A stretch of 39,731 bases of DNA, from contig NZ_QWEQ01000028.1 in NCBI RefSeq assembly GCF_009936045.1, forward strand, positions 1 to 39,731, read 5' to 3'. The DNA comes from Emergencia sp. 1XD21-10. Lineage in GTDB: Bacteria; Bacillota; Clostridia; Peptostreptococcales; Anaerovoracaceae. This document shows, one piece after another, positions 4,097-30,971 of the stretch (position 1 is the stretch's first letter; the number at the start of each line of letters is the position of its first letter). A program made the translations under genes and the position numbers. Under the pieces are notes generated by a model that had not been told where the DNA came from, searched no databases, and saw nothing but the letters and a program-made list of their open reading frames with translations.

Positions 4097-4978
4097 ATGA
4101 GAAAGTTTTTATGCATGATATTAGTATTGTCTTTGGTTTTGGGAATGGGAACGGCAGCGTTTGCGGAGACATCGAATGACACAACGGGCAAATTAGGTGA
4201 TACAGTGGAAACATCTACGTGTAATGAATATGCAATGCTGAAAGAGCTGGCTAAAGAAAGTGAATTTAGTCTTGTTAAACAAGGCTACACAAAATCTGAG
4301 ATTGTAGAAATCAAGGATTACAAAGAAAATTATACCAAGCATCTTGAAAAGTTGGATAAACTGGAGGATCAAGGGCTAACTAATCTCGGGTATGATGAAG
4401 AACAAATAAAAATGATTAGAACATTTAAAGGAAGTGAAGCGGAATTGTATGGACTCTCAGCAACACTGTCTTTAAATGTCGTAAAGACTGACTTTCGATA
4501 CAAGGAAACAGAACGTTCAAGAGGGACTTTTTCATACGAATGGACATGGAGTGGGATTCCGATGTCGACCTCAACGGATATAGTTGCAGCAAGTTGGAAT
4601 GACTGGGAAATCGTTTCCCGTAGTAGTACAATTAAGTACTATGATATGACGACTGGTAGTTATGAAAAATCCACTACTGGTACAAGAAAAGATCCAACCT
4701 CTTCAGGAGGGATAGCAGGTGCAGGGTATACATTTCCGTTAAGAATTTCGAAAGAAAATTTATTTGCTAAAAATGGAAAAGTTTCTCTTAATTTGATTTC
4801 AGATGTATTTTCAAGGAAAGTTTTCTATTATTATGCAGCTTATGGGCATACGGTACTATCAGTATCTCCATCGTTTGCATTATCTGGTTCAGGTATAAAT
4901 GTCGGAATTGAATTCAGCTCGGGAGTTGAAAAGTTGAGTCCTAAAAAAGGAAATAGTACACCAAAAGTTATTTCTTAG
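4097..4978 (+). CDS. Second secreted protein of unknown function
   Basis: This is a 293-residue exported protein. The ATG at 4097 is preferred over an upstream TTG at 4070 because AAAGGAG lies 6 bases before it and an ideal signal peptide follows (MRKFLCM, hydrophobic stretch, cleavage after TAAFA, about residue 23). After cleavage comes a Lys/Glu-rich helical region (about 35-110) with a pattern typical of LxxxGYxxxEI repeats: QGYTKSEIVEIKDYKE and then LGYDEEQIKMIRTFKG. From about 130 onward the protein is aromatic and Ser/Thr-rich, probably beta-stranded. No catalytic motif is seen. Its position between the LytTR target gene and the membrane-protein cluster suggests a joint extracellular role. 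The function is unknown. Confidence 0.72.
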   Translation: MRKFLCMILVLSLVLGMGTAAFAETSNDTTGKLGDTVETSTCNEYAMLKELAKESEFSLVKQGYTKSEIVEIKDYKENYTKHLEKLDKLEDQGLTNLGYDEEQIKMIRTFKGSEAELYGLSATLSLNVVKTDFRYKETERSRGTFSYEWTWSGIPMSTSTDIVAASWNDWEIVSRSSTIKYYDMTTGSYEKSTTGTRKDPTSSGGIAGAGYTFPLRISKENLFAKNGKVSLNLISDVFSRKVFYYYAAYGHTVLSVSPSFALSGSGINVGIEFSSGVEKLSPKKGNSTPKVIS

Positions 4979-21355: not shown

Positions 21356-21417
21356 TTAAACGGCAGGCAGGCAATGCTGCCAGTCCGGGTTGGAAACCTG
21401 TCTGACAGCGTTTTTTG

Positions 21418-21493
21418 TGCGTAAATTTTGAGTTTTTTAGAAAAATATGCAGGAATGTGTGCATATTTTTGATGCTTTTTCAAGAAATATGCA
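21418..21493. repeat. Paired 34-bp palindromes, copy 1
   Basis: Two 34-bp units lie at 21418-21451 (left arm degenerate) and 21460-21493, separated by 8 bp. The second unit is TGCATATT-N18-AATATGCA with inner GA...TC complementarity. The same 34-8-34 arrangement occurs twice near 30.2-30.4 kb. It lies between the IS remnant and the 3' end of the AAA+ regulator gene. Confidence 0.75.
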
Positions 21494-21519
21494 TAGCGGG
21501 CACCAAGACAACACTAAAT

Positions 21520-23223
21520 CTATTTTCGGCTTTCTAAAATCATCAGCCCTTTGTCGGTCAGGGACATGCCGTACTTTCCATGGGTTGCAGAAATTAGCCC
21601 CTGCTCAGCTAGCATGGAAATATATTTGCGGATTTTGTATTCGGATATGCCGTAGCCGGCATCATGGAGAAACCAGTAAATTCGGCTTCTGCCAGCAATT
21701 TCGCTTCTTTGGTTAATTTCCCGAATGGCAGACAAAATAAGCTTAGAGATATCATCAGTTTTTTCAGCAGAAGCAAAGTGGAATCCGCTTTCAGCAGTGG
21801 AGGCACTATCATAGGGAAAATCCTCGGGCGTGATGGTATCGCTTTCGCAGACCGCAAGAGTAAATTTAATGGTGGCAAAAAGCTCGCGAATATTGCCCTG
21901 CCACTCCCTTTGCATCAGAGCCTCCATGGCAAGAGGCGTGATTTCCTTGTTGATGCAGAACAGGGTGTTCATCCAGTGGGTAACGAGAAGGGGAATATCT
22001 TCCTTATGCTGAGAAAGGGGCGGTAGATAAAGATAGCCTTCTTTTAAGCGGTAGAACAAATCTTTACGAAAAGTTTTTTCTGCAGTCATTTCTTCTAAGT
22101 TGCAATTGGTGGCGGCAATGATACGGACGTCGACGGGGAAGTGACGCTTGCCGCCGGTTTTTATGATTTCGCCAGTCTGCATGATTTGAAGAATCTGGGC
22201 TTGCACTTTCAGGGAGGCTTCGTCTATTTCATCGAGGAAAATGCTGCCGCCTTCTGCCAGCTGAAAAAGCCCGATTGTGCCGTCTTCTTCGCAGCCAAAA
22301 AGTTCTGTCTCGATTTGGGCGTCAGACAGCGCAGCAAAGTTGATGGAAACAAAAGGTGCACCTTGTCTTGCGGAAGCGTGGTGAATTGCGCTTGCAAAGA
22401 TAGACTTTCCGGTTCCGCTGTCGCCCTCAATGAGAACAGACATATCTGTGGCAGCAATTTTTTCGGCGGTAGATTTCACCTTGGAAATGCAAGGACTTTG
22501 CCCAATAATGTCTCGGAATTTATATTTTGCATAGCAATTAGGTCCGCAAAGAGCGGTGCGCACTGCCTTGGAAGTTTTGCCCGCTTCGTTGGCAGCATCG
22601 GAGATTCGTCTTGCAAAGATTAAGAGGTCGTCCAGATACTGCTTTGCGTAGGATTGCAGGTTGGATTCCAGCAAATGATAGGAATCCATAATTTGTATGA
22701 TGGTGGAAAAATCGAAAATTTTTGCGCCGATATTGTAGACGTTTTCAACGCCGGCAGGCACGTGAATCATGGCATCGGCAGTAATCGCGATAGGCCTTGC
22801 TTTTGCGGAAAAATCGCAGTCTGGTGAGTATGGTACGAACTGATAAAAGTTAAAGCCGCTTCTCTGCAAATCGCTGATGACTTCCTCGGCGGAAGTGCGG
22901 GATTCCATGACGACGAGGATTTCCCGATCGCGAGGCAGGAAAAGAATCTTGTCCAGCTTGTGGCTGGTAATGGTACGGCTGCCGACTAAAGTTTCTTCCA
23001 GATAATCCGAAAGCCCACTGTCAAGAAATTGCTGGTAAACTTTTTCGCCGGAAAAAACACCAAAGTACTGTCCGCTAAGGACAGTAGAATCTCCTGCGGA
23101 GACATTGTATAAGGTGATAGAAATTTCTTTTGGAAGAAAAGACCGAAGTTGTTCCTCTAAAGTGCGTAATGTGAAGAAGTGGTCTGCAACTAATAGCAGA
23201 CGGGGATTCGTTTTGAAAGCCAT
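21520..23223 (-). CDS. Sigma-54-type AAA+ transcriptional regulator lacking GAFTGA, winged-helix C-terminus
   Basis: This is a 567-residue regulator. The start at 23223 is chosen over 23265 because AAAGGAG lies 6 bases before this ATG. The N-terminal region (1-225) resembles the PrpR/RocR type of effector domain only loosely. The AAA+ core (about 238-450) has Walker A GDSGTGKS (267-274), Walker B GGSIFLDE (325-332) and arginine finger region FRKDLFYRL (385-393). Between ETELFG and GLFQLAEGG there is only CEEDGTI: the GAFTGA loop that contacts sigma-54 is deleted. The C-terminus (about 490-567) is a winged-helix rather than a Fis helix-turn-helix. It is divergent from the decarboxylase operon, a likely target. 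A paralog ends the window. Confidence 0.88.
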   Translation of the reverse strand: MAFKTNPRLLLVADHFFTLRTLEEQLRSFLPKEISITLYNVSAGDSTVLSGQYFGVFSGEKVYQQFLDSGLSDYLEETLVGSRTITSHKLDKILFLPRDREILVVMESRTSAEEVISDLQRSGFNFYQFVPYSPDCDFSAKARPIAITADAMIHVPAGVENVYNIGAKIFDFSTIIQIMDSYHLLESNLQSYAKQYLDDLLIFARRISDAANEAGKTSKAVRTALCGPNCYAKYKFRDIIGQSPCISKVKSTAEKIAATDMSVLIEGDSGTGKSIFASAIHHASARQGAPFVSINFAALSDAQIETELFGCEEDGTIGLFQLAEGGSIFLDEIDEASLKVQAQILQIMQTGEIIKTGGKRHFPVDVRIIAATNCNLEEMTAEKTFRKDLFYRLKEGYLYLPPLSQHKEDIPLLVTHWMNTLFCINKEITPLAMEALMQREWQGNIRELFATIKFTLAVCESDTITPEDFPYDSASTAESGFHFASAEKTDDISKLILSAIREINQRSEIAGRSRIYWFLHDAGYGISEYKIRKYISMLAEQGLISATHGKYGMSLTDKGLMILESRK

Positions 23224-23277
23224 AGTAACTCCTTTTGCATTTTGATTGCGGCGACGCCGATTCAATTACATGCGTTC

Positions 23278-23295
23278 ATTATACCATAGCTATGG
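23278..23295 (-). promoter_or_regulatory. Extended -10 promoter overlapped by a 12-bp palindrome
   Basis: On the minus strand TGGTATAAT (TATAAT at 23278-23283) is a consensus extended -10 for the regulator gene. The perfect palindrome CCATAGCTATGG (23284-23295) overlaps its TG part. A bound regulator would block this promoter, so autoregulation is plausible. Confidence 0.6.
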
Positions 23296-23394
23296 AGAGG
23301 TGAATATGAATTTTAAATTATTCTTCTGGAAAAATTAAAAAAATTAACTGAAAGTAGCGGCATTCTTAAAAAATCAAGTACTTTTTTTGAAGTA

Positions 23395-23423
23395 TTGCAA
23401 TTGGGGCGCCTGCTATATAGAAT
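23395..23423 (+). promoter_or_regulatory. Promoter of the Na+-pumping decarboxylase operon
   Basis: TTGCAA (23395-23400), 17 bp, TAGAAT (23418-23423): a sigma-A type promoter. No -24/-12 (TGGCAC-N5-TTGC) element was found in the divergent region, which agrees with the lack of GAFTGA in the adjacent regulator. Confidence 0.6.
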
Positions 23424-23462
23424 AAAGAAAAAATTCCAAAAGAAAGATGGGGAAATAAAATC

Positions 23463-24821
23463 GTGAGCAATAAAAAAGAATTTACCGGTGCACAGAAAAT
23501 GATTTGTCAGATTTTGGATCCGGGCAGCTTTATGGAAATCGGAGAGGCGGTTACTGCAAGACTGACCGATTTTTATACGCCGGATACGCAGGACAAACCA
23601 TCTGATGGTGTTATCACAGGATACGGCACCATCGACGGACAGCTGGTTTATATATTCAGTCAGGATGTGGAAGTGCTGGGCGGCACTTATGGTGAAATGC
23701 ATGGACAGAAAATCAACAGGCTCTATCAGCTTGCTATGAAAGCAAAAGCACCGATTATTGGGCTTTTGGACTGTCATGGGTTCCGTATTGAAGAAGGTCT
23801 TGACAGTCTGGACAAATTTGCAAGACTTTATGCTTTACAGGCGCAGGCTTCAGATTTGATTCCTCAGATTATGGCGGTAGTCGGTATGTGTGGCGGCGGC
23901 ATGTCCATCGCAGCAAACATGGCGGACTTCGTCTTTGTTGAAAAAGAACACGGACAGCTTTTCGTAAATTCGGCAAGTTCCATCGACCGCAGTTTTGACG
24001 AAATTGTAGACCAGGCGGACTTCACTGACGCAAGTATGAGCTTTGATGAAATAAAGGACTCCATTCGGACGCTGGTACACACGCTGATTCCGGCGAATAC
24101 AGAAAGAAAGCCGCGGCAGAAGCCTTGCAACGACGATTTGAACAGACTTTGTCCGAATCTGGCTGGGCTGAGTGGTGACGGCAGAGCGATTTTGAAGGAG
24201 ATATCCGATAACGGCTTTTTCTTTGAAACCAGAAGAGACTGCGGCGAGGATATGGTAACCGGATTTATCATGCTGGACGGTATAGTAATCGGTGCGATTG
24301 CAAACCAGAAATCCAAGGCAGGTATGAGAAGAATCAGTGCTGAAGGCTTTGATAAGGCGGCAACTTTTATAGAACTGTGCGATAAATTCTCCTTCCCGAT
24401 TTTGACCCTAACCGATACAGAAGGCTTCGACACATCGGAGGAACAGGAAATCTATCTGCCGAAGGCAGCCGGTCGAATGATTAGGGCTCTGACGAAGGCG
24501 AAGGCGCCGAAAGTAAATCTGATTACAGGAGAAATTTACGGAAGCGCTTACAGTATCATGAACAGTAAAGGACTGGGTGCTGACTATGTATTTATGTGGG
24601 ACGGCGCAAAAGTAAACCTGATTAATGCAAAACAGGCCGTTGAAATTCTTTACCCACAGGCAGATTCCACGATGATAGAGCAGCGCATTGCTGACTATGA
24701 GAAGAGCCATAGCGGGGCAAGAGCACTGGCAAGACATGATTATGTCGATAAAGTAATTGACCCGGCGGACAGCAGAAAATATCTGGTTGGCGCTTTTGAG
24801 ACCTTTGCTAATTTGTATTAG
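23463..24821 (+). CDS. Acyl-CoA carboxyltransferase subunit (12S / MmdA-like)
   Basis: This 452-residue carboxyltransferase of the propionyl-CoA carboxylase beta/MmdA/12S-transcarboxylase family has two crotonase-fold halves. The first half carries SQDVEVLGGTYGEMHGQKI and GMCGGGMSIAANMADF. The second half carries GFIMLDGIVIGAIANQ and a degenerate glycine loop near GEIYGSAYSIMNSKGLGADY. It starts with GTG (23463) behind a weak GATGGGGA site. It is the first gene of an operon with gamma, biotin carrier and beta subunits and a 5S-type carboxyltransferase. The second half lacks the canonical GGAYGAM-type motif seen in MmdA, so the acyl-CoA substrate is uncertain. Confidence 0.83.
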   Translation: MSNKKEFTGAQKMICQILDPGSFMEIGEAVTARLTDFYTPDTQDKPSDGVITGYGTIDGQLVYIFSQDVEVLGGTYGEMHGQKINRLYQLAMKAKAPIIGLLDCHGFRIEEGLDSLDKFARLYALQAQASDLIPQIMAVVGMCGGGMSIAANMADFVFVEKEHGQLFVNSASSIDRSFDEIVDQADFTDASMSFDEIKDSIRTLVHTLIPANTERKPRQKPCNDDLNRLCPNLAGLSGDGRAILKEISDNGFFFETRRDCGEDMVTGFIMLDGIVIGAIANQKSKAGMRRISAEGFDKAATFIELCDKFSFPILTLTDTEGFDTSEEQEIYLPKAAGRMIRALTKAKAPKVNLITGEIYGSAYSIMNSKGLGADYVFMWDGAKVNLINAKQAVEILYPQADSTMIEQRIADYEKSHSGARALARHDYVDKVIDPADSRKYLVGAFETFANLY

Positions 24822-24832
24822 GGAGGCAGTCA

Positions 24833-25168
24833 ATGACAATTACAGAAATATTATCGAAAGCGGGAATGAATACGCTGCTTGGTATGGGCACCGTATTCGT
24901 CATGCTGGTTTTAATCAGCTGCATTATTTCCCTGTTCAAGTTCATACCGCAGCCGGGTGCCTCTAAGAAACAGAAAGAAGAGGCGGCAAAGACGGATGCA
25001 GCAAGCAGTCCTGCAACTGCTGCAGACGGCAAAGATGACGGCGCTTTAATTGCAGTCATTACGGCGGCTATTGCAGCAGCAAAAGCCGCAGAAAATGGCG
25101 GAGCATCTTTTGAGAATGAAGCCGATGGCGCATATATTGTTCGATCTATAAAGAGAAGAGGAAAGTAA
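24833..25168 (+). CDS. OadG-family (gamma) subunit of the Na+-pumping decarboxylase
   Basis: This is a 111-residue membrane protein with one N-terminal helix (MGTVFVMLVLISCIISLFKFI), an Ala/Lys-rich linker and a small C-terminal part. This is the usual plan of OadG/MmdD subunits, which anchor the carboxyltransferase to the beta subunit. GGGAGG precedes the ATG. It lies 11 bases after the 12S-like gene and 12 bases before the biotin carrier. The assignment relies on architecture and position. Confidence 0.82.
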   Translation: MTITEILSKAGMNTLLGMGTVFVMLVLISCIISLFKFIPQPGASKKQKEEAAKTDAASSPATAADGKDDGALIAVITAAIAAAKAAENGGASFENEADGAYIVRSIKRRGK

Positions 25169-25180
25169 GAGAGGAAAACT

Positions 25181-25543
25181 ATGGAAACATATATCATTAA
25201 AGTCAATGGAGTGACATACGAGGTAGAAGTAGAGAAAAAGGGGGCGGGAGCACCTGCCGCGCAGCCAGCAGCGTCTGCTGCTGCGCCTGCACCTGCTGCG
25301 CCTGTGCAGACAGCCGCTGCCGAAGGTGAGGGTGAAGCTGTTACTACAGGAACTGCAGGAAAGGTATGGAAAATCTCTGCGAAAGTGGGCGATAACCTGA
25401 AAAAAGGTGATACTATTCTGATTCTGGAAGCGATGAAGATGGAAATTCCAGTAGTAGCGCCAAAAGACGGTCAGCTCACCTCCATTACCGCTGCAGAGGG
25501 AGACAGCGTAGAATCCGGACAGAGTGTAGCAACCATTGCATAA
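25181..25543 (+). CDS. Biotin carboxyl carrier protein of the decarboxylase
   Basis: This is a 120-residue biotin carrier. The N-terminal strand (METYIIKVNGVTYEVEVE) is followed by a flexible Ala/Pro linker (about 21-48) and a biotinyl domain with the acceptor lysine K86 in EAMKMEIP. It shuttles CO2 from the carboxyltransferase(s) to the membrane beta subunit. It is encoded between the gamma and beta genes. The same carrier could serve both the 12S-like and the OadA-like subunits of the operon. Confidence 0.93.
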   Translation: METYIIKVNGVTYEVEVEKKGAGAPAAQPAASAAAPAPAAPVQTAAAEGEGEAVTTGTAGKVWKISAKVGDNLKKGDTILILEAMKMEIPVVAPKDGQLTSITAAEGDSVESGQSVATIA

Positions 25544-25558
25544 ACTTAGGGGAAAAAC

Positions 25559-26683
25559 ATGGAATATATTATCACAACTTTAGGAAATTTAATCCATCAG
25601 ACTGCCTTTTTCGATTTGACCATAGGCAATCTGCTAATGCTTGCGGTTGCATGTGGATTCTTATACTTAGCGATTGCCAAGCAGTACGAACCGCTTCTGC
25701 TGCTGCCGATTTCCTTCGGCATGCTGCTTGTCAATATTTATCCTCCCATCATGGAAGAGGGAGGACTGCTCCACTACTTTTATCTGCTAGATGAGTGGAC
25801 GATTTTGCCATCACTCATTTTCCTGGGCGTTGGCGCAATGACAGACTTCGGGCCGCTGATTGCAAACCCAAAGAGTTTTCTGCTTGGTGCGGCGGCACAA
25901 TTTGGAATCTTTGGCGCATACATGCTCGCCATGCTTATCGGATTTAACGATATGGCGGCAGCGGCAATCGCTATTATTGGCGGAGCCGACGGCCCGACTT
26001 CTATATTTTTAGCGATGAAACTGCACCAGACTGACATTATGGGGCCTATTGCCGTAGCAGCATATTCCTATATGTCACTGGTTCCGATCATCCAGCCTCC
26101 TATTATGCGAGCTTTGACCACAAAGGAAGAGCGTTCCATTAAAATGGAACAGCTTCGTCCGGTCTCCAAAAGAGAGAAAATTCTTTTTCCTATTGTGGTT
26201 ACCATCGTAGTGTGCGGCCTTCTGCCGTCCACTACGCCGCTCGTAGGTATGCTGATGCTGGGAAATCTCTTTAGAGAAAGCGGCGTTGTAAGACAGCTGA
26301 CTGACACAGCGTCCAATGCACTGATGTATATCGTCGTTATATTGCTTGGAACTTCCGTGGGAGCAACCACCAGCGCAGAGGCTTTCCTCAACTGGAGCAC
26401 GCTGAAAATCGTGGGCATAGGGCTTGCAGCCTTCTGCTTTGGTACAGCAGCTGGCGTACTCTTTGGAAAACTGATGTGTAAGATTTCCGGCGGTAAAATC
26501 AACCCGCTCATCGGCTCCGCAGGAGTTTCCGCTGTGCCGATGGCAGCCCGCGTATCCCAGAAAGTCGGCGCAGAAGATGATCCGACCAACTTCCTGCTGA
26601 TGCACGCTATGGGGCCTAACGTGGCAGGCGTAATCGGCACTGCTGTTGCTGCAGGCGTATTTATGGCAATCTTCGGCGTATAA
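25559..26683 (+). CDS. Na+-translocating decarboxylase beta subunit (OadB/MmdB/GcdB)
   Basis: This 374-residue polytopic membrane subunit decarboxylates carboxybiotin and exports Na+. The signature [10 protein letters not shown] with the essential D144 is present, as are [12 protein letters not shown], the conserved N and S residues in [30 protein letters not shown] and the closing [24 protein letters not shown] lies 5-6 bases before the ATG. It stands between the biotin carrier and the OadA-like gene, so the operon encodes a complete membrane pump. Confidence 0.95.
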
Positions 26684-26695
26684 AGGAGTAATAAC

Positions 26696-28099
26696 ATGAA
26701 TAATAAAAAGTTAAAAATAACCGAGACCGTTTTGAGAGACGCACATCAGTCTCTCATAGCAACAAGAATGAAAACAGAGGATATGATTCCAATTCTGGAA
26801 AAGATGGATCAGGTTGGATATCACTCTATTGAATGCTGGGGTGGTGCGACTTACGATGCTTCTCTTCGGTTCTTAAATGAGGACCCGTGGCAGCGCCTTA
26901 GAACGCTGCGTCGCAGACTTAAAAACAGTAAACTACAGATGCTGTTTCGCGGACAGAATATCCTCGGATATAGACATTATGCTGATGATGTAGTGGAATA
27001 CTTTGTACAGAAATCCATTGCAAACGGCATTGATATTTTGCGAATTTTTGACGCATTTAACGACTTGCGCAATGTGGAGACAGCTGTGCGTGCCGCAAAA
27101 AAAGAAGGCGGCAATGTGCAGCTTGCAATGTCTTACACTACTGGCAGTGCGTACACACTAGATTATTGGAAAAAACTCGCCTCAGATATGGAAAGCCTGG
27201 GTGCAGATTCTATCTGCATCAAGGATATGGCAGGCATTTTAACCCCGGATATGGCTGACCGCCTGGTAAGAGAACTGAAAACCCAGGTGAAAGTTCCCAT
27301 CTCTCTGCACAGTCACTGCACTAGCGGCGTTGCACCGATTACTTATGTAAAAGGTGTAGAAGCTGGCTGCGATGTGATTGATACAGCAATTTCCCCATTC
27401 TCTATGGGAACCAGTCAGCCGGCAACCGAGGTTATGGTGGCAACTTTTGCAGGAACACCTTACGACACAGGACTTGATCAAAATCTTTTGGCAGAGATTG
27501 CAGACTATTTCAGACCTCTTCGTGACAGTTCCATTGCCAGCGGACTTCTTGATCCGAAAATGCTGACAGTTGATGTAAAGACGCTGCTTTATCAGGTGCC
27601 GGGTGGCATGCTGTCCAATCTGGTTTCTCAGCTGAAGGAACAGGGGGCAGAAGATAGATTTTATGAAGTGCTGGAAGAAATTCCAAGGGTGCGTGCCGAT
27701 CTCGGCGAACCGCCGCTGGTAACGCCGTCCTCACAGATTGTGGGAACCCAGGCGGTGCTCAACGTGCTGACCGGCGAGCGCTATAAAATCATGTCTCAGG
27801 AAACGAAGGCAATCCTACGTGGTGAATATGGTAAGACTGTAAAGCCGTTTAATCCGGAAGTGCAGAAAAAGGCTATTGGTGATGCCGAGCCGATTACCTG
27901 CCGTCCGGCGGATTTGCTGGAACCAGAGCTGGAAACTTTGGAAAAAGAAATTTCCGTGTTTAAAACGCAGGACGAAGATGTACTGTCTTACGCACTGTTT
28001 CCGAAGGTGGCAACGGAGTACTTCAAATACAGAGACGCAAAGGCGCATAAAATCGATCCGGATAAATATGATTTGACAAACAGAGCCTATCCGGTATAA
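26696..28099 (+). CDS. oadA: Oxaloacetate decarboxylase alpha / 5S-type carboxyltransferase
   Basis: This 467-residue carboxyltransferase has a DRE-TIM barrel and lacks the C-terminal biotin domain of longer OadA proteins, so it needs the separate carrier at 25181. Motifs are ITETVLRDAHQSL (D15 and H17, metal/catalytic), ECWGGATYD, MLFRGQNILGYRHY, CIKDMAG with the carbamylated K176, and SLHSHCTSG with H205 and H207 as metal ligands. The conserved C-terminal domain contains VPGGMLSNL. It transfers carboxyl from oxaloacetate (or to/from pyruvate) to biotin. The size matches the 5S subunit of transcarboxylase. It is 12 bases after oadB and 49 before the aminotransferase. Confidence 0.93.
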   Translation: MNNKKLKITETVLRDAHQSLIATRMKTEDMIPILEKMDQVGYHSIECWGGATYDASLRFLNEDPWQRLRTLRRRLKNSKLQMLFRGQNILGYRHYADDVVEYFVQKSIANGIDILRIFDAFNDLRNVETAVRAAKKEGGNVQLAMSYTTGSAYTLDYWKKLASDMESLGADSICIKDMAGILTPDMADRLVRELKTQVKVPISLHSHCTSGVAPITYVKGVEAGCDVIDTAISPFSMGTSQPATEVMVATFAGTPYDTGLDQNLLAEIADYFRPLRDSSIASGLLDPKMLTVDVKTLLYQVPGGMLSNLVSQLKEQGAEDRFYEVLEEIPRVRADLGEPPLVTPSSQIVGTQAVLNVLTGERYKIMSQETKAILRGEYGKTVKPFNPEVQKKAIGDAEPITCRPADLLEPELETLEKEISVFKTQDEDVLSYALFPKVATEYFKYRDAKAHKIDPDKYDLTNRAYPV

Positions 28100-28148
28100 C
28101 ATAGAAAGCAAATAATAAAGATAGAAATTTTTAGGAGGTATGTGCGAA

Positions 28149-29387
28149 ATGATTATGGCACAGCAAAACGGAAGAAAAACCATCGGAGCGCCAGATAAGC
28201 TTTTCGGAGTTTCTTCCAAAGCAAAAGCAAGAATTGCAGAAAAAGGAAAAGAGAACGTAATCGATTCCACCATCGGTGTACTGCTTAACGATGAAGGAAA
28301 GTTGGTTGTGCTGGAGTCGGTTATGGAATGTATCCGCAGTCTGCAGCCGGAAGACTATGCAGCTTACGCACCGATTCTGGGATTGCCTGAATATAGAGAA
28401 GCAGTAAAAAAGGCTGTTTTCCTAGACGATATGCCGGAGGGGGTATTCGTAGAAAGCTGTTATACGCCGGGCGGTACCGGTTCCATCAGAAATGCCATTT
28501 CCGCATATACAGCTTTCGGAGATAAAATTTTGGTCAGTGATTGGCACTGGAATCCATATAATCTGATAGCATCAGAAATCGGCCGCAGCGTTTCTACTTA
28601 TCGTCTTTTCAATGAAAAACTGAAATTTGACAGCAAGTCTTTTGAGACAGAACTTGCCGCTATTTTAGCAGAGCAGGATGAAACGCTGATTATCATCAAT
28701 ACACCAGCGCACAACCCAACTGGCTATACTTTCACGGAGGAAGACTGGAATCAGGTGCTGGCTGTGCTTGATACGTATGAAGGTAAAGGTAAGAAGATTG
28801 CACTCCTTGTTGATATCGCATATCTGGATTTCTCCGGTGACGCAGTAGAATATAGATTTTTCTTAAAGAAACTGGCAGGTCTTCCTGCGCACATTCTGCC
28901 GCTGATTGCATTCAGTGCTTCCAAAGGCTATACAATGTACGGCATGCGCTGCGGCGCGCTCCTTTGCATGGCGCAGACTGCTGAAGTTGCAAAGGAATTT
29001 GTGGATGTGATGAGCGTGGAATGCAGAGCATCCTGGTCTAACGGCAACAGAGCTGCTATGAAGGTGCTGGCAAATATCGTGGAAGACCCAGCGTTGATGG
29101 CGAAGGTGACTGAAGAAAGAGAACATTATCTGCAGATTCTCAGAAGACGCGGCGCCATTTTTATGGAAGAGGCAGAAAAAGCAGGTCTGACTGCCTGCCC
29201 GTATGACAGTGGATTTTTCATCACAATTCCTTGTGAGAAACCGGAGGCAGCAGGAGAACTGCTGCAGGAAATGGATATTTTCTGTATTCCAATGGGCAGA
29301 GGAATTCGTGTTTCCGTGGCTTCCAACACAGAAGACGAATGCAGAGTAATGCCTGCAAAAATTAAAGAAGCAATCACCAAAGCATAA
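28149..29387 (+). CDS. Class I/II PLP-dependent aminotransferase (aspartate/aromatic type)
   Basis: This is a 412-residue aminotransferase. ATG 28149 (spacing 10 from AGGAGG) is preferred over ATG 28140, which would be one base from the ribosome-binding site. Fold-type I motifs are YTPGGTGSIRNA (cofactor phosphate cup), NTPAHNPTGYTF, VDIAYLDFSG and the Schiff-base K259 in SASKGYTMYGMRCG, with the C-terminal SGFFITI and a terminal arginine region GRGIRVS. Position at the end of the oxo-acid decarboxylase operon suggests that it supplies the substrate, for example oxaloacetate from aspartate; tyrosine/aromatic specificity is the alternative. A strong terminator follows. Confidence 0.88.
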   Translation: MIMAQQNGRKTIGAPDKLFGVSSKAKARIAEKGKENVIDSTIGVLLNDEGKLVVLESVMECIRSLQPEDYAAYAPILGLPEYREAVKKAVFLDDMPEGVFVESCYTPGGTGSIRNAISAYTAFGDKILVSDWHWNPYNLIASEIGRSVSTYRLFNEKLKFDSKSFETELAAILAEQDETLIIINTPAHNPTGYTFTEEDWNQVLAVLDTYEGKGKKIALLVDIAYLDFSGDAVEYRFFLKKLAGLPAHILPLIAFSASKGYTMYGMRCGALLCMAQTAEVAKEFVDVMSVECRASWSNGNRAAMKVLANIVEDPALMAKVTEEREHYLQILRRRGAIFMEEAEKAGLTACPYDSGFFITIPCEKPEAAGELLQEMDIFCIPMGRGIRVSVASNTEDECRVMPAKIKEAITKA

Positions 29388-29411
29388 TAATAGTTCCTAA
29401 TAATCAAAAAG

Positions 29412-29452
29412 CAGAACCTAAAAAGTTTTTTAACTTTTGGGTTCTGTTTTTT
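29412..29452 (+). terminator. Terminator of the decarboxylase-aminotransferase operon
   Basis: CAGAACCTAAAAAGTT (29412-29427) pairs with AACTTTTGGGTTCTG (29432-29446) around a short loop. TTTTTT follows. Confidence 0.88.
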
Positions 29453-29461
29453 GTGGAGTTG

Positions 29462-29470
29462 TGGTATAGT
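29462..29470 (+). promoter_or_regulatory. Extended -10 promoter of the Lrp-type gene
   Basis: TGGTATAGT lies 32 bases before the ATG. The expected start is near 29477. Confidence 0.5.
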
Positions 29471-29501
29471 TAGTATTGAAATTTGACGAAGGCAGGGTTT
29501 T

Positions 29502-29930
29502 ATGAGAAACTTAGACGATATCGATATCAAGATTTTAAATCAGCTTAGAAAAAATGCACGCACGCCGATGAAGGAACTGTCAGCTCTGGTATATCTGACA
29601 ACGCCGGCGGTTTCTGCCCGAATTGATAAATTGGAAAAGGACGGATATATTAAAGGATATCACGCCCATTTGGATTTGGAGAAACTGGGCTACGGAATCA
29701 AGGCGTTTATCATGATTACTGTGGAGCCGGAGGACTGCCCGAAATTCTATGATTTTGTCAAGTCAGAAAAGAGCGTGTTGGAATGCAACCACATCACAGG
29801 TCCCTATTCTATGATTTTGAAGGTAGTGTTTTCCTCCACCAGCCTTTTGGACGAGTTCCTTGGCAAACTGCAGGTTTTCGGGAAGACCGAAACCCAGGTG
29901 GTATTTTCCACCGCCTTGGAGAGACATTAG
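29502..29930 (+). CDS. Lrp/AsnC-family transcriptional regulator
   Basis: This is a 142-residue regulator with an N-terminal helix-turn-helix (DDIDIKILNQLRKNART, then TTPAVSARIDKLEKDGYI) and a C-terminal RAM ligand-binding domain (about 65-142: IKAFIMITVEPED, CNHITGPYSMILKV). Such proteins sense amino acids as dimers or octamers. It is directly downstream of the aminotransferase/decarboxylase operon, separated by a terminator and with its own promoter, so control of amino-acid catabolism, including that operon, is likely but inferred. Confidence 0.92.
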   Translation: MRNLDDIDIKILNQLRKNARTPMKELSALVYLTTPAVSARIDKLEKDGYIKGYHAHLDLEKLGYGIKAFIMITVEPEDCPKFYDFVKSEKSVLECNHITGPYSMILKVVFSSTSLLDEFLGKLQVFGKTETQVVFSTALERH

Positions 29931-29955
29931 AGCAGACTTGAATTGAGGCGAAAGC

Positions 29956-30153
29956 ATGAAAAATCAATATCTTACAAGAATTTTAGCGGCACATCTCTTG
30001 GAGTTAAAGGCGCTGGTTCAGAGATATAACCAGAGTGGAAAAGGAAGTAAACTTGAAGAACCAACTTTTTTGATGGTTCTTACGAGGGGGGAGTTTGCAT
30101 ATCAGAGAAAAGACGGTGTATATGTGGTACCTGTTGGGTGTTTGAGAGACTGA
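29956..30153 (+). pseudogene. Short remnant resembling the C-terminus of a DUF4143-type ATPase
   Basis: This 65-residue frame has a possible GAGGCG ribosome-binding site. It ends in a pattern (TFLMVLTRGEFAYQRKDG, then VYVVPVGCLRD) that I recognise from the extreme C-terminus of another group of DUF4143 AAA ATPases. The preceding helix (LAAHLLELKALVQRYNQ) also fits. No ATPase domain exists upstream, because the Lrp gene ends 25 bases before. It is therefore probably a truncated gene end that may or may not still be translated. A genuine small protein is the alternative. Confidence 0.5.
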
Positions 30154-30216
30154 GAGCAGGTTACAATAGCGCTGATAAAACAGCCTTTGTGCAATATAAA
30201 GTGAAGAATTACAAAT

Positions 30217-30292
30217 TGCATATTTTCGAGAAAAATCTCCGAAATATGCACGATACTCTACATATTTTTTGAAAAAATCCTCAAAATATGTA
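30217..30292. repeat. Paired 34-bp palindromes, copy 2
   Basis: Unit 30217-30250 is TGCATATT-N18-AATATGCA with near-complete inner pairing around AAAAAT. Unit 30259-30292 is TACATATT-N18-AATATGTA: both outer positions changed together, which preserves pairing. The units are 8 bp apart. Confidence 0.8.
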
Positions 30293-30297
30293 CAAAT

Positions 30298-30340
30298 AAG
30301 CTGCTGGATGAAAATTTTACTGTTCTTTCGGCAGCTTTTT
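30298..30340 (+). terminator. Terminator-like hairpin between the palindrome pairs
   Basis: AAGCTGC (30298-30304) pairs with GCAGCTT (30331-30337) over a long loop, and a T-run continues to 30340. It is weak because of the 26-base loop. Confidence 0.35.
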
Positions 30341-30360
30341 CGGTTTTTATAAGACAAATA

Positions 30361-30436
30361 TGCATATTAAAGGCATTTTCTTTAAAAATATGCATACGGT
30401 TGTGCATATTATCGACATAATTCTTCAAAATATGCA
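30361..30436. repeat. Paired 34-bp palindromes, copy 3
   Basis: The units 30361-30394 and 30403-30436 are both TGCATATT-N18-AATATGCA, again 8 bp apart. The inner arms differ (AAAG/CTTT and TCGA-like) but keep partial complementarity. Confidence 0.8.
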
Positions 30437-30495: not shown

Positions 30496-30523
30496 AGAAA
30501 CGGCCGGAGCATTTAGCTCCGGC
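30496..30523 (-). terminator. Terminator of the DUF4430 lipoprotein gene
   Basis: On the minus strand GCCGGAGC and GCTCCGGC form a perfect 8-bp GC-rich stem (30503-30523) with a 5-base loop, followed by CGTTTCTTT. Confidence 0.8.
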
Positions 30524-30545
30524 TGTTAATTTGCATTAATCTACA

Positions 30546-30971
30546 TCAATCTATTTTCTTATAAACCCATTCCAGCACATCGCCGTCCTGCAGGACATAG
30601 TCGCCGGCAGAATCGGCGCACAGCTGTCCGTTGACTTTGTACTGCCAGATTCTGTTCGGATGAAAATCCCCATTGTTTAGGTCATTAATGCCTACGATTG
30701 TTCCATCGGTAGTTTCTACATTAACTGACATGTCGTTGACGTTGCAGTAAATCTGAATTGCCTCCAACACAGAGGAATTTTCTTCGATTTTAAAAGCAGT
30801 GGTTTCGATGTCAGGGAGTTCCGATTTTTTTGGATAGTCAATGCTGATGGTGATTGTAATCGGATGGATAATTTCTGCAGTGTCGCCTTTATTTTCGCAG
30901 CTGGTTGTGCATAAGACAGCAGCAAACAAAGTCAGACACAGGGTCAAACAGATAAATTTACTCTTGTTCAT
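30546..30971 (-). CDS. DUF4430-domain lipoprotein
   Basis: This is a 141-residue exported protein. The signal peptide ends in a lipobox (LCTTSC), giving a lipid-anchored cysteine at about residue 25. The mature domain (about 37-141) fits DUF4430, the beta-grasp-like domain related to the C-terminus of transcobalamin/intrinsic factor: SSVLEAIQIYCN, then IWQYKVNGQLCADSAGDYVLQDGDVLEWVY. Such proteins bind cobalamin-like or other small ligands at the cell surface or act as adhesin domains; the ligand here is unknown. It is monocistronic, with its own terminator. Confidence 0.82.
   Translation of the reverse strand: MNKSKFICLTLCLTLFAAVLCTTSCENKGDTAEIIHPITITISIDYPKKSELPDIETTAFKIEENSSVLEAIQIYCNVNDMSVNVETTDGTIVGINDLNNGDFHPNRIWQYKVNGQLCADSAGDYVLQDGDVLEWVYKKID

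Follow-up and report, generated by a model that had tools for sequence, protein, structure and literature searches.

Four palindromic units in helical phase form a dispersed element at gene ends in Emergencia

Pairs of 34-bp palindromes lie between genes in the gut bacterium Emergencia sp. 1XD21-10, and they raise the question of what larger structure, if any, they belong to and what might read it. We addressed this in the window (the whole 39,731-bp stretch of DNA analysed, contig C25 of the 3.39-Mb draft genome, here G000), in the rest of that genome, in a second species of the same genus (G008) and across the family.

Units in the window and the plan of the full element

A preliminary description of this DNA had reported palindromic 34-bp units, and these match TRYATATT-N18-AATATRYA exactly at 30217, 30259, 30361, 30403 and 21460, whereas the unit at 21418 has a poor left arm (TGCGTAAA). 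With up to two mismatches the window holds seven unit matches, the five exact ones and two-mismatch sites at 4804 and 19220; shuffled windows had a mean of 0.17, and none of 100 reached seven. At the same tolerance the unit occurs at 102 places in the whole genome, and its reversed control at none. The preliminary description had let its case depend on further paired copies elsewhere, and a genome-wide search found AATATGCA-N8-TGCATATT 31 times (up to two mismatches; control 0). The constant 8-bp gap that it proposed is exact in the window pairs, but genome-wide, gaps of 18 bp (a period of 52 bp) are roughly as frequent, at 30 places in G000 versus 2 for the control (up to two mismatches). Nor do the pairs stand separately, as first thought: those at 30217 and 30361 are two halves of one element, whose inner units are spaced 102 bp apart on either side of a core, and the pair at 21418 is a half element (Table 1; model R1 was built from 64 reference units, none of them from the window). 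The palindromes are real and genome-wide, yet they are parts of a larger object of ~221 bp.

Table 1 Positions of the complete element, the half element and neighbouring features in the window
Feature	Position	Strand	Remarks
Complete four-unit element	30217..30436	.	spacings 42-102-42; between Lrp/AsnC-type gene side (+) and DUF4430 gene (-)
Unit 1, 34 bp	30217..30250	+	33.8 bits versus model R1
8-bp spacer	30251..30258	.	cgatactc
Unit 2, 34 bp	30259..30292	+	TACATATT...AATATGTA; 30.6 bits
Core, 68 bp	30293..30360	.	separates the unit pairs
Core stem-loop with T-rich tail	30298..30337	+	-16.6 kcal/mol, z -3.6; compensatory changes in related cores
Unit 3, 34 bp	30361..30394	-	28.4 bits
8-bp spacer	30395..30402	.	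tacggttg
Unit 4, 34 bp	30403..30436	+	28.3 bits
Half element, unit with degenerate outer arm TGCGTAAA	21418..21451	-	24.5 bits
Half element, second unit	21460..21493	-	31.1 bits
Possible stem-loop with T-run beside half element	21364..21417	+	z -1.55; 15 of 200 shuffles as good; none in terminator scan
Separate terminator-like hairpin outside element, before convergent DUF4430 gene	30499..30527	.	from terminator scan
Lrp/AsnC-type regulator gene	29502..29930	+	upstream context
DUF4430 gene	30546..30971	-	convergent neighbour, context

At the fetched loci one plan recurred, a unit pair, a core and a second unit pair, giving four 34-bp units with two on each side of a 48–80-bp core. Of 50 entries, 29 from G000 and 21 from a partial survey of G008, 42 contained four or more units with no more than four mismatches in the arms of each. 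Neighbouring good units were most often 42 (57 times), 52 (35), 93 (15), 83 (10), 103 (7) or 104 bp (4) apart and more rarely 72, 82 or 94 bp (two each) or 51, 102 or 114 bp (one each); a single value of 146 is an artefact of locus L073, in which the search overlooked a 35-bp unit. The outer units lay 187 bp apart in 23 of the 42 elements, the other distances being 176, 177, 186, 188, 198, 208 (five-unit copies) and 230 bp (the mis-set L073). Units were sought at a fixed length of 34 bp, and length variants such as the 33-bp unit of L050 and the 35-bp unit of L073 are therefore under-counted; poor-unit flags fall only on set positions in these two loci, and weak units in L098, L099 and L100 (three) were placed by expected spacing.

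Once oriented, 143 units gave the consensus ~TGCATATTTT NRRR AAAAAT YYCC N AAAATATGCA (40 bits), which is asymmetric because of a central A-tract. Positions 16–18 were A in 85, 96 and 99% of these units, so the interior, which the preliminary description called variable, is not free. Nine arm positions were at least 98% conserved, a figure inflated by the selection of units for their arm match.

Helical phase and conservation between species

Spacings between units correspond to whole helical turns (42/52, 72, 83, 93, 103 and 114 bp, ±1). The 12 distinct values clustered at multiples of ~10.4 bp (R = 0.92, simulated P = 5e-5), and merging them into seven classes gave P = 2e-5. The inner core shared this register, with an A/T phase of 5.8 bp versus 5.9 bp for the units (Rayleigh P = 2e-7) in 18 representatives picked by eye, some of them related. 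We repeated the test with 15 independent groups, formed by similarity and orthology from all four-unit cores except L073, and obtained R = 0.92 and P = 3e-6. An initial A-tract test took in the arms and was partly built in; the core tests drop the outer six core bases. Unit-locked A/T phase was not detected in the 60-bp flanks (P = 0.29 and 0.59), and the 60 bp beyond the left flank showed P = 0.04 at a different phase. In a test for selection on the phase of the core, W/S changes ran at 0.267 at A/T peaks and 0.317 at troughs. The accessible part of one study describes A/T periodicity as general in bacterial intergenic DNA (PMC516772), but general periodicity alone would neither lock to the units nor vanish in the flanks. 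Judged by its sequence, the element, unlike its surroundings, looks like one bending or wrapping track.

The arms did not covary as the strands of a stem would. Pairing between arms in 64 aligned units was 86.3%, slightly lower than the 87.8% of shuffles, and positions 8 and 27 avoided joint change (P = 2e-4). The compensatory change noted in the preliminary description is present in the unit at 30259, yet it is not a general feature: positions 2 and 33 were independent in 178 units (Fisher P = 0.79), and stem-preserving compensatory change, the REP/BIME criterion, was not found in the unit arms. Independent protein contacts would explain arms that do not covary, whereas a conserved RNA stem would not, which argues against RNA hairpins or REPs. 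A search of the window with Rfam covariance models at gathering scores returned 0 matches.

Conservation between the two species was concentrated in the arms. Across 12 four-unit orthologous pairs, arms had changed at 41 of 768 sites (5.3%), unit interiors at 147 of 384 (38%) and cores at 173 of 462 (37%); positions 9–10 and their mirror had changed at 15% and the centre at 19%, with interiors, cores and gaps at 32–42%. Eight pairs ascertained by flanking gene, not by motif, gave 29 of 512 arm sites (5.7%) versus 90 of 256 interior sites (35%). Spacing was equal in 8 of the 12 pairs, off by 1 in 2 and off by 11 bp in 2 (93 to 104, 103 to 114); the G008 orthologue of the window element (L081) has spacings 42-103-42. 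The pairs L072/L144 (three units recognised in G008), L073/L083 and L050/L095 (two recognised) and L063/L097 (five units, spacing kept) stand outside the 12. Neutral decay would not yield arm-biased conservation, and we therefore conclude that selection has acted on the sites ever since the two species parted. Together with the helical-turn spacings and the phase-locked core A/T, this conservation indirectly supports the protein-bound element suggested in the preliminary description, and the absent arm covariation opposes the twin-hairpin RNA suggested beside it.

Location and distribution of the copies

The units had been placed downstream of gene ends, which is true in the window and, by gene-context counts, at most other loci. 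G000 elements lay between convergent genes in 12 cases, tandem genes in 15 and divergent genes in 1 (n = 28), compared with 6, 33 and 20 control gaps taken from the element loci themselves (n = 59; P = 0.001 for each contrast). The corresponding counts in G008 were 12, 5 and 1 (n = 18) versus 3, 24 and 14 (n = 41). Genes were called as simple longest ORFs, and limits of 50 aa and 80 aa class a few loci differently (L083 is dropped from the 80 aa count). Neighbours were diverse, including a gyrA-family gene, dnaX, a MerR regulator, a biotin ligase, ABC and MATE transporters, and beta-lactamase-family and M55 peptidase genes; a reading of the annotations of 30 scanned neighbouring proteins gave no shared function. 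The operator of a single-factor regulon, with sites upstream of functionally linked genes, does not fit, given neighbours without shared function and the convergent setting of 12 of the 28 G000 elements.

Half of the tested cores carry a significant hairpin: 17 of 34 folded better than shuffles (P < 0.05; one of these is the mis-set L073 core) and 17 had no significant hairpin. In the largest subfamily the core hairpin is followed by a T-run, with compensatory change in 5 of 13 pairs and several pairs broken. By our reading, its orientation matches the upstream gene in 8 of 10 large-subfamily copies, orthologues included, the exceptions being L049 and L067. Both the window core and the half element were passed over by a terminator scan, which allows loops of up to 8; in the window core the loop of 10 exceeds this limit.

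The copies are sharply bounded. When non-orthologous copies were compared with each other, 38 of the 54 matches stopped on both sides no more than 12 bp from the element, 14 lay inside it and 2 extended past it. By similarity the copies form 15 groups, many of them small and a few larger, subfamilies having at first been named by eye. A flanking-gene lookup found 16 of 18 queried G000 flanks in G008; nine of these loci have an element (eight with four units, one with three recognised), one a decayed remnant and six none, so no single copy looks essential. In a third genome of the family, G007, 11 orthologous loci were found, with no unit in the fetched stretches, some of which were not aligned on both sides.

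Across 296 family genomes, a search with model R1 under stricter filters that may lose weak matches gave clear matches in G000, G008 and G007 only, and marginal ones (E 7e-4 to 1e-3) in G093 (2), G156 (1) and G233 (1). Single places at one mismatch occurred in G004, G005, G007, G011, G049 and G054; those of G005, G007 and G011 were inspected, and only that of G007 has a partner unit. The 8-bp-gap pattern at up to three mismatches occurred at 20 places in G007, each with at least two mismatches, versus 7 for the control, and we took these matches as chance. Across genome contigs, exact double pairs were found only in Emergencia sp. SUG182 (three stretches; records close to that of the window were possibly excluded). 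The window element had no match in phages and plasmids, and the exact three-arm pattern had none in viral contigs. A family confined to two species and one locus in a third is odd for a general chromosome-architecture site.

A putative wrapping module and its rivals

The analysis establishes how the element is built and phased, how its sites are conserved, how sharply its copies end, and where they lie and occur; from these observations we infer protein binding, wrapping and a boundary role. On balance, we lean towards a dispersed, host-retained intergenic ~221-bp module that is bound cooperatively and bent or wrapped by a putative sequence-specific protein, and that serves as a BIME-type boundary. 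Each 34-bp unit would consist of two inverted half-sites (~CRTGCATATTTT) flanking the A-tract, and the putative protein would bind the eight half-sites cooperatively on one helix face, while the core, phased in A/T, would be wrapped between the pairs and the whole module would form a single wrapping track. At transcription ends the module may pin DNA, absorb or block supercoils, and halt polymerase or read-through between neighbouring, often convergent, units, with help from the hairpin where present; this role would be like that proposed for BIMEs. The location at gene 3' ends and the frequent terminator-like hairpin make a boundary the likely job. A bolder version, which we put forward tentatively and with considerable doubt, is a portable, sequence-encoded wrapping module in which phased A/T runs through ~21 helical turns alongside four pairs of specific half-sites. 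It would have spread to gene ends, been retained as a domain boundary and be read by a dedicated, hitherto undescribed nucleosome- or segrosome-like protein assembly.

By position and dispersal the element resembles BIMEs, and by phase it resembles strong gyrase sites. BIMEs and REPs, as far as the accessible part of one account describes them, are dispersed intergenic palindromic units, often paired and mostly near 3' ends in tandem or convergent settings (PMC3733652). The element likewise has dispersed palindromic units at tandem and convergent gene ends, but it is AT-rich, follows a four-unit plan with helical-turn spacings, lacks stem covariation and showed no RAYT link; a GTAG or CGTC tag was absent from the consensus of 64 units with two flanking bases. 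Phased sites on one helix face around a core are known from parC/ParR, lambda attP and Lrp-wrapped promoters, which are single loci or operators. Segrosome and intasome sites share with the element the phased sites flanking a core, but the element exists as ~30 dispersed copies of one plan.

In descending order of likelihood, the rivals are wrapping by gyrase, ends of a transposon, sites of a recombinase and RNA hairpins. DNA gyrase itself, drawn to gene ends by positive supercoils as at BIME-2 and the Mu strong gyrase site (SGS), could wrap the element, whose A/T keeps in phase with the helix over some 130 bp, as in strong gyrase sites, where A/T recurs with every turn along >100 bp, and whose places at gene 3' ends and in convergent gaps would suit it. 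Gyrase is ubiquitous, however, and the element has a narrow taxonomic range, 2–3 of 296 family genomes. The accessible part of a study of E. coli gyrase gives a degenerate 130-bp motif whose G/C content is phased, and an enrichment of gyrase cleavage in BIME-2, which is located in intergenic DNA (PMC6379681), whereas the element has 221 bp, four defined units and nearly invariant arms, even if the conservation of the nine arm positions is inflated. We consider gyrase an unlikely wrapper, though the foremost of the rivals.

We also think it improbable that the element is a non-autonomous transposon (MITE) with the unit pairs as transposase-binding ends and the core as passenger DNA. Like MITEs, the element is short and dispersed, with sharp inverted ends (38 of the 54 matches stop at its ends on both sides), subfamilies, discrete copies at unrelated loci and presence or absence between species, and to this extent the mobile palindrome of the preliminary description finds support. 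Unlike theirs, its internal sites are conserved at fixed orthologous loci while the remainder diverges. No larger gene-bearing copy was seen among the fetched loci, no target duplication was readable between empty-site flanks too diverged to align, and no cognate transposase was found at the fetched loci or by a search for PF01797, the one transposase family sought. PF01797 was searched in 41 genomes; G000 has one copy, with a stop and ~65 kb from an examined element on its contig, G008 has one, and further copies occur in G001, G004, G007 and G012, genomes without the dispersed family. A RAYT/Y1 transposase as mobiliser is not supported, its distribution not tracking the family.

A tyrosine recombinase (P0001) raised the prospect that the units are accessory or regulatory sites of this neighbour that then spread. 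The only clear G007 element, two units with an 18-bp gap, lies 34 bp upstream of the recombinase start codon; the G007 recombinase is an orthologue with 81% identity, and the same locus is common to G000 and G008, with four units in each. It may be the founder site, but G000, G008 and G007 may simply be close relatives. Inverted sites of its own (ACATAAT..ATTATGT-like) accompany this recombinase group a short way downstream in G000, G006, G007 and G020, and no R1 match lies near the homologues (~50% identity) of G006, G010, G014 and G020. In G008 the recombinase gave no match at E 1e-12 and has a truncated start at L093, yet conserved elements are kept. Because of these other sites and the missing G008 match, we did not take the recombinase as the binder; its role appears to concern an adjacent invertible segment, and the reading of the units as its accessory or regulatory sites is very doubtful. 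Crossover within the 8-bp gaps was rejected as well, since cgatactc and tacggttg, the two gaps of the window element, do not complement each other and the recombinase has sites of a different kind. As a binder we also rejected the product of the Lrp gene beside the window element, whose gene region has a match in G007 (C38) within a 10.5-kb stretch without an R1 match.

It is very improbable that the palindromes are RNA hairpins or REP-type units acting as RNA or as RAYT substrates, despite palindromic arms at 3' ends as in REPs and a paired change in one window unit, since the arms do not covary (for which twin hairpins were rejected), the spacing follows helical turns, the window has no Rfam match, and PF01797 occurs in relatives without the dispersed family, with only a single, stop-containing copy in G000.

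The wrapping module thus remains the reading towards which we lean. Dispersed repeats at gene ends are known, but the plan of this element was not found described in a literature search in which most subscription papers were outside reach. Such repeats in bacteria are usually read as selfish palindromes or as hairpins of RNA. What is constrained in this element is the phase of the double helix and the sequence of the arms, and this points to a protein–DNA superstructure. With ~30 defined copies, sister-species loci without the element and a single-copy relative, gene insulation by repeats becomes directly testable, and the element appears to be a chromosome marker of a kind not yet described.

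Tyrosine recombinases and adjoining segments

In Emergencia sp. 1XD21-10 (G000) and in the related genomes G006, G007 and G020, stand-alone tyrosine recombinases that form one group (Pfam phage integrase) have a segment directly 3' of the gene. Each segment is bounded by inverted sites of 20–25 bp, mostly ACATAAT..ATTATGT, with 213–240 bp between them. The G006 segment contains an 11/12 promoter match (TTGACA-17-TATAGT), and the G000 segment is followed by the gene for a zinc-ribbon SPFH protein. From their sequences, the adjoining segments appear to be invertible promoters that are controlled by the recombinases and together form a family.

In G010 and G014, contigs C6 and C34 both stop no more than about 60 bases past the same recombinase gene, and the C6 end falls exactly at an inverted site. 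Such breaks might be expected of a segment present in mixed orientation within the population.

Coordinates of recombinase-associated features and elements
Feature	Position	Genome, contig	Detail
Inverted-site segment after recombinase	L057:2802-3059	G000 C22	
Inverted-site segment after recombinase	L092:5517-5779	G007	
Inverted-site segment after recombinase	L108:1205-1488	G006	
Inverted-site segments after recombinase	L105:1225-1494; L119:4673-4960	G020	
Contig end after recombinase gene	L116:1-40	G010 C6	
Contig end after recombinase gene	L117:1-58	G014 C34	
Shortened recombinase frame	L093:3850-3970	G008 C30	
65-aa frame just 5' of window element	window 29956-30153		
Element at species-alignment edge	L050:4108 vs L095	G000 C8 vs G008	
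Element	L049:4061-4282		105 bp after gyrA-family gene
Element	L069:3882-4113		165 bp before dnaX gene
Five-unit element	L063:3965-4206; L097:4049-4290		spacings 42-52-72-42

Elements and rearrangement

One element copy lies near a gyrA-family gene and another near a dnaX gene, and the five-unit variant is retained in both G000 and G008. In G008, of the same genus, the recombinase frame loses its match after about two dozen codons; the point of loss adjoins an element with four units and coincides with a break in synteny.

The frame preceding the window element matched nothing in Pfam or PHROG. Counterparts of its region lie in pieces ~18–20 kb away in G007 and are split by ~1.1 kb in G008, and thus the region adjoining the element is rearranged. 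Because the interspecies alignment of L050 with L095 starts within the element, synteny may break there, and element copies might be points of rearrangement.
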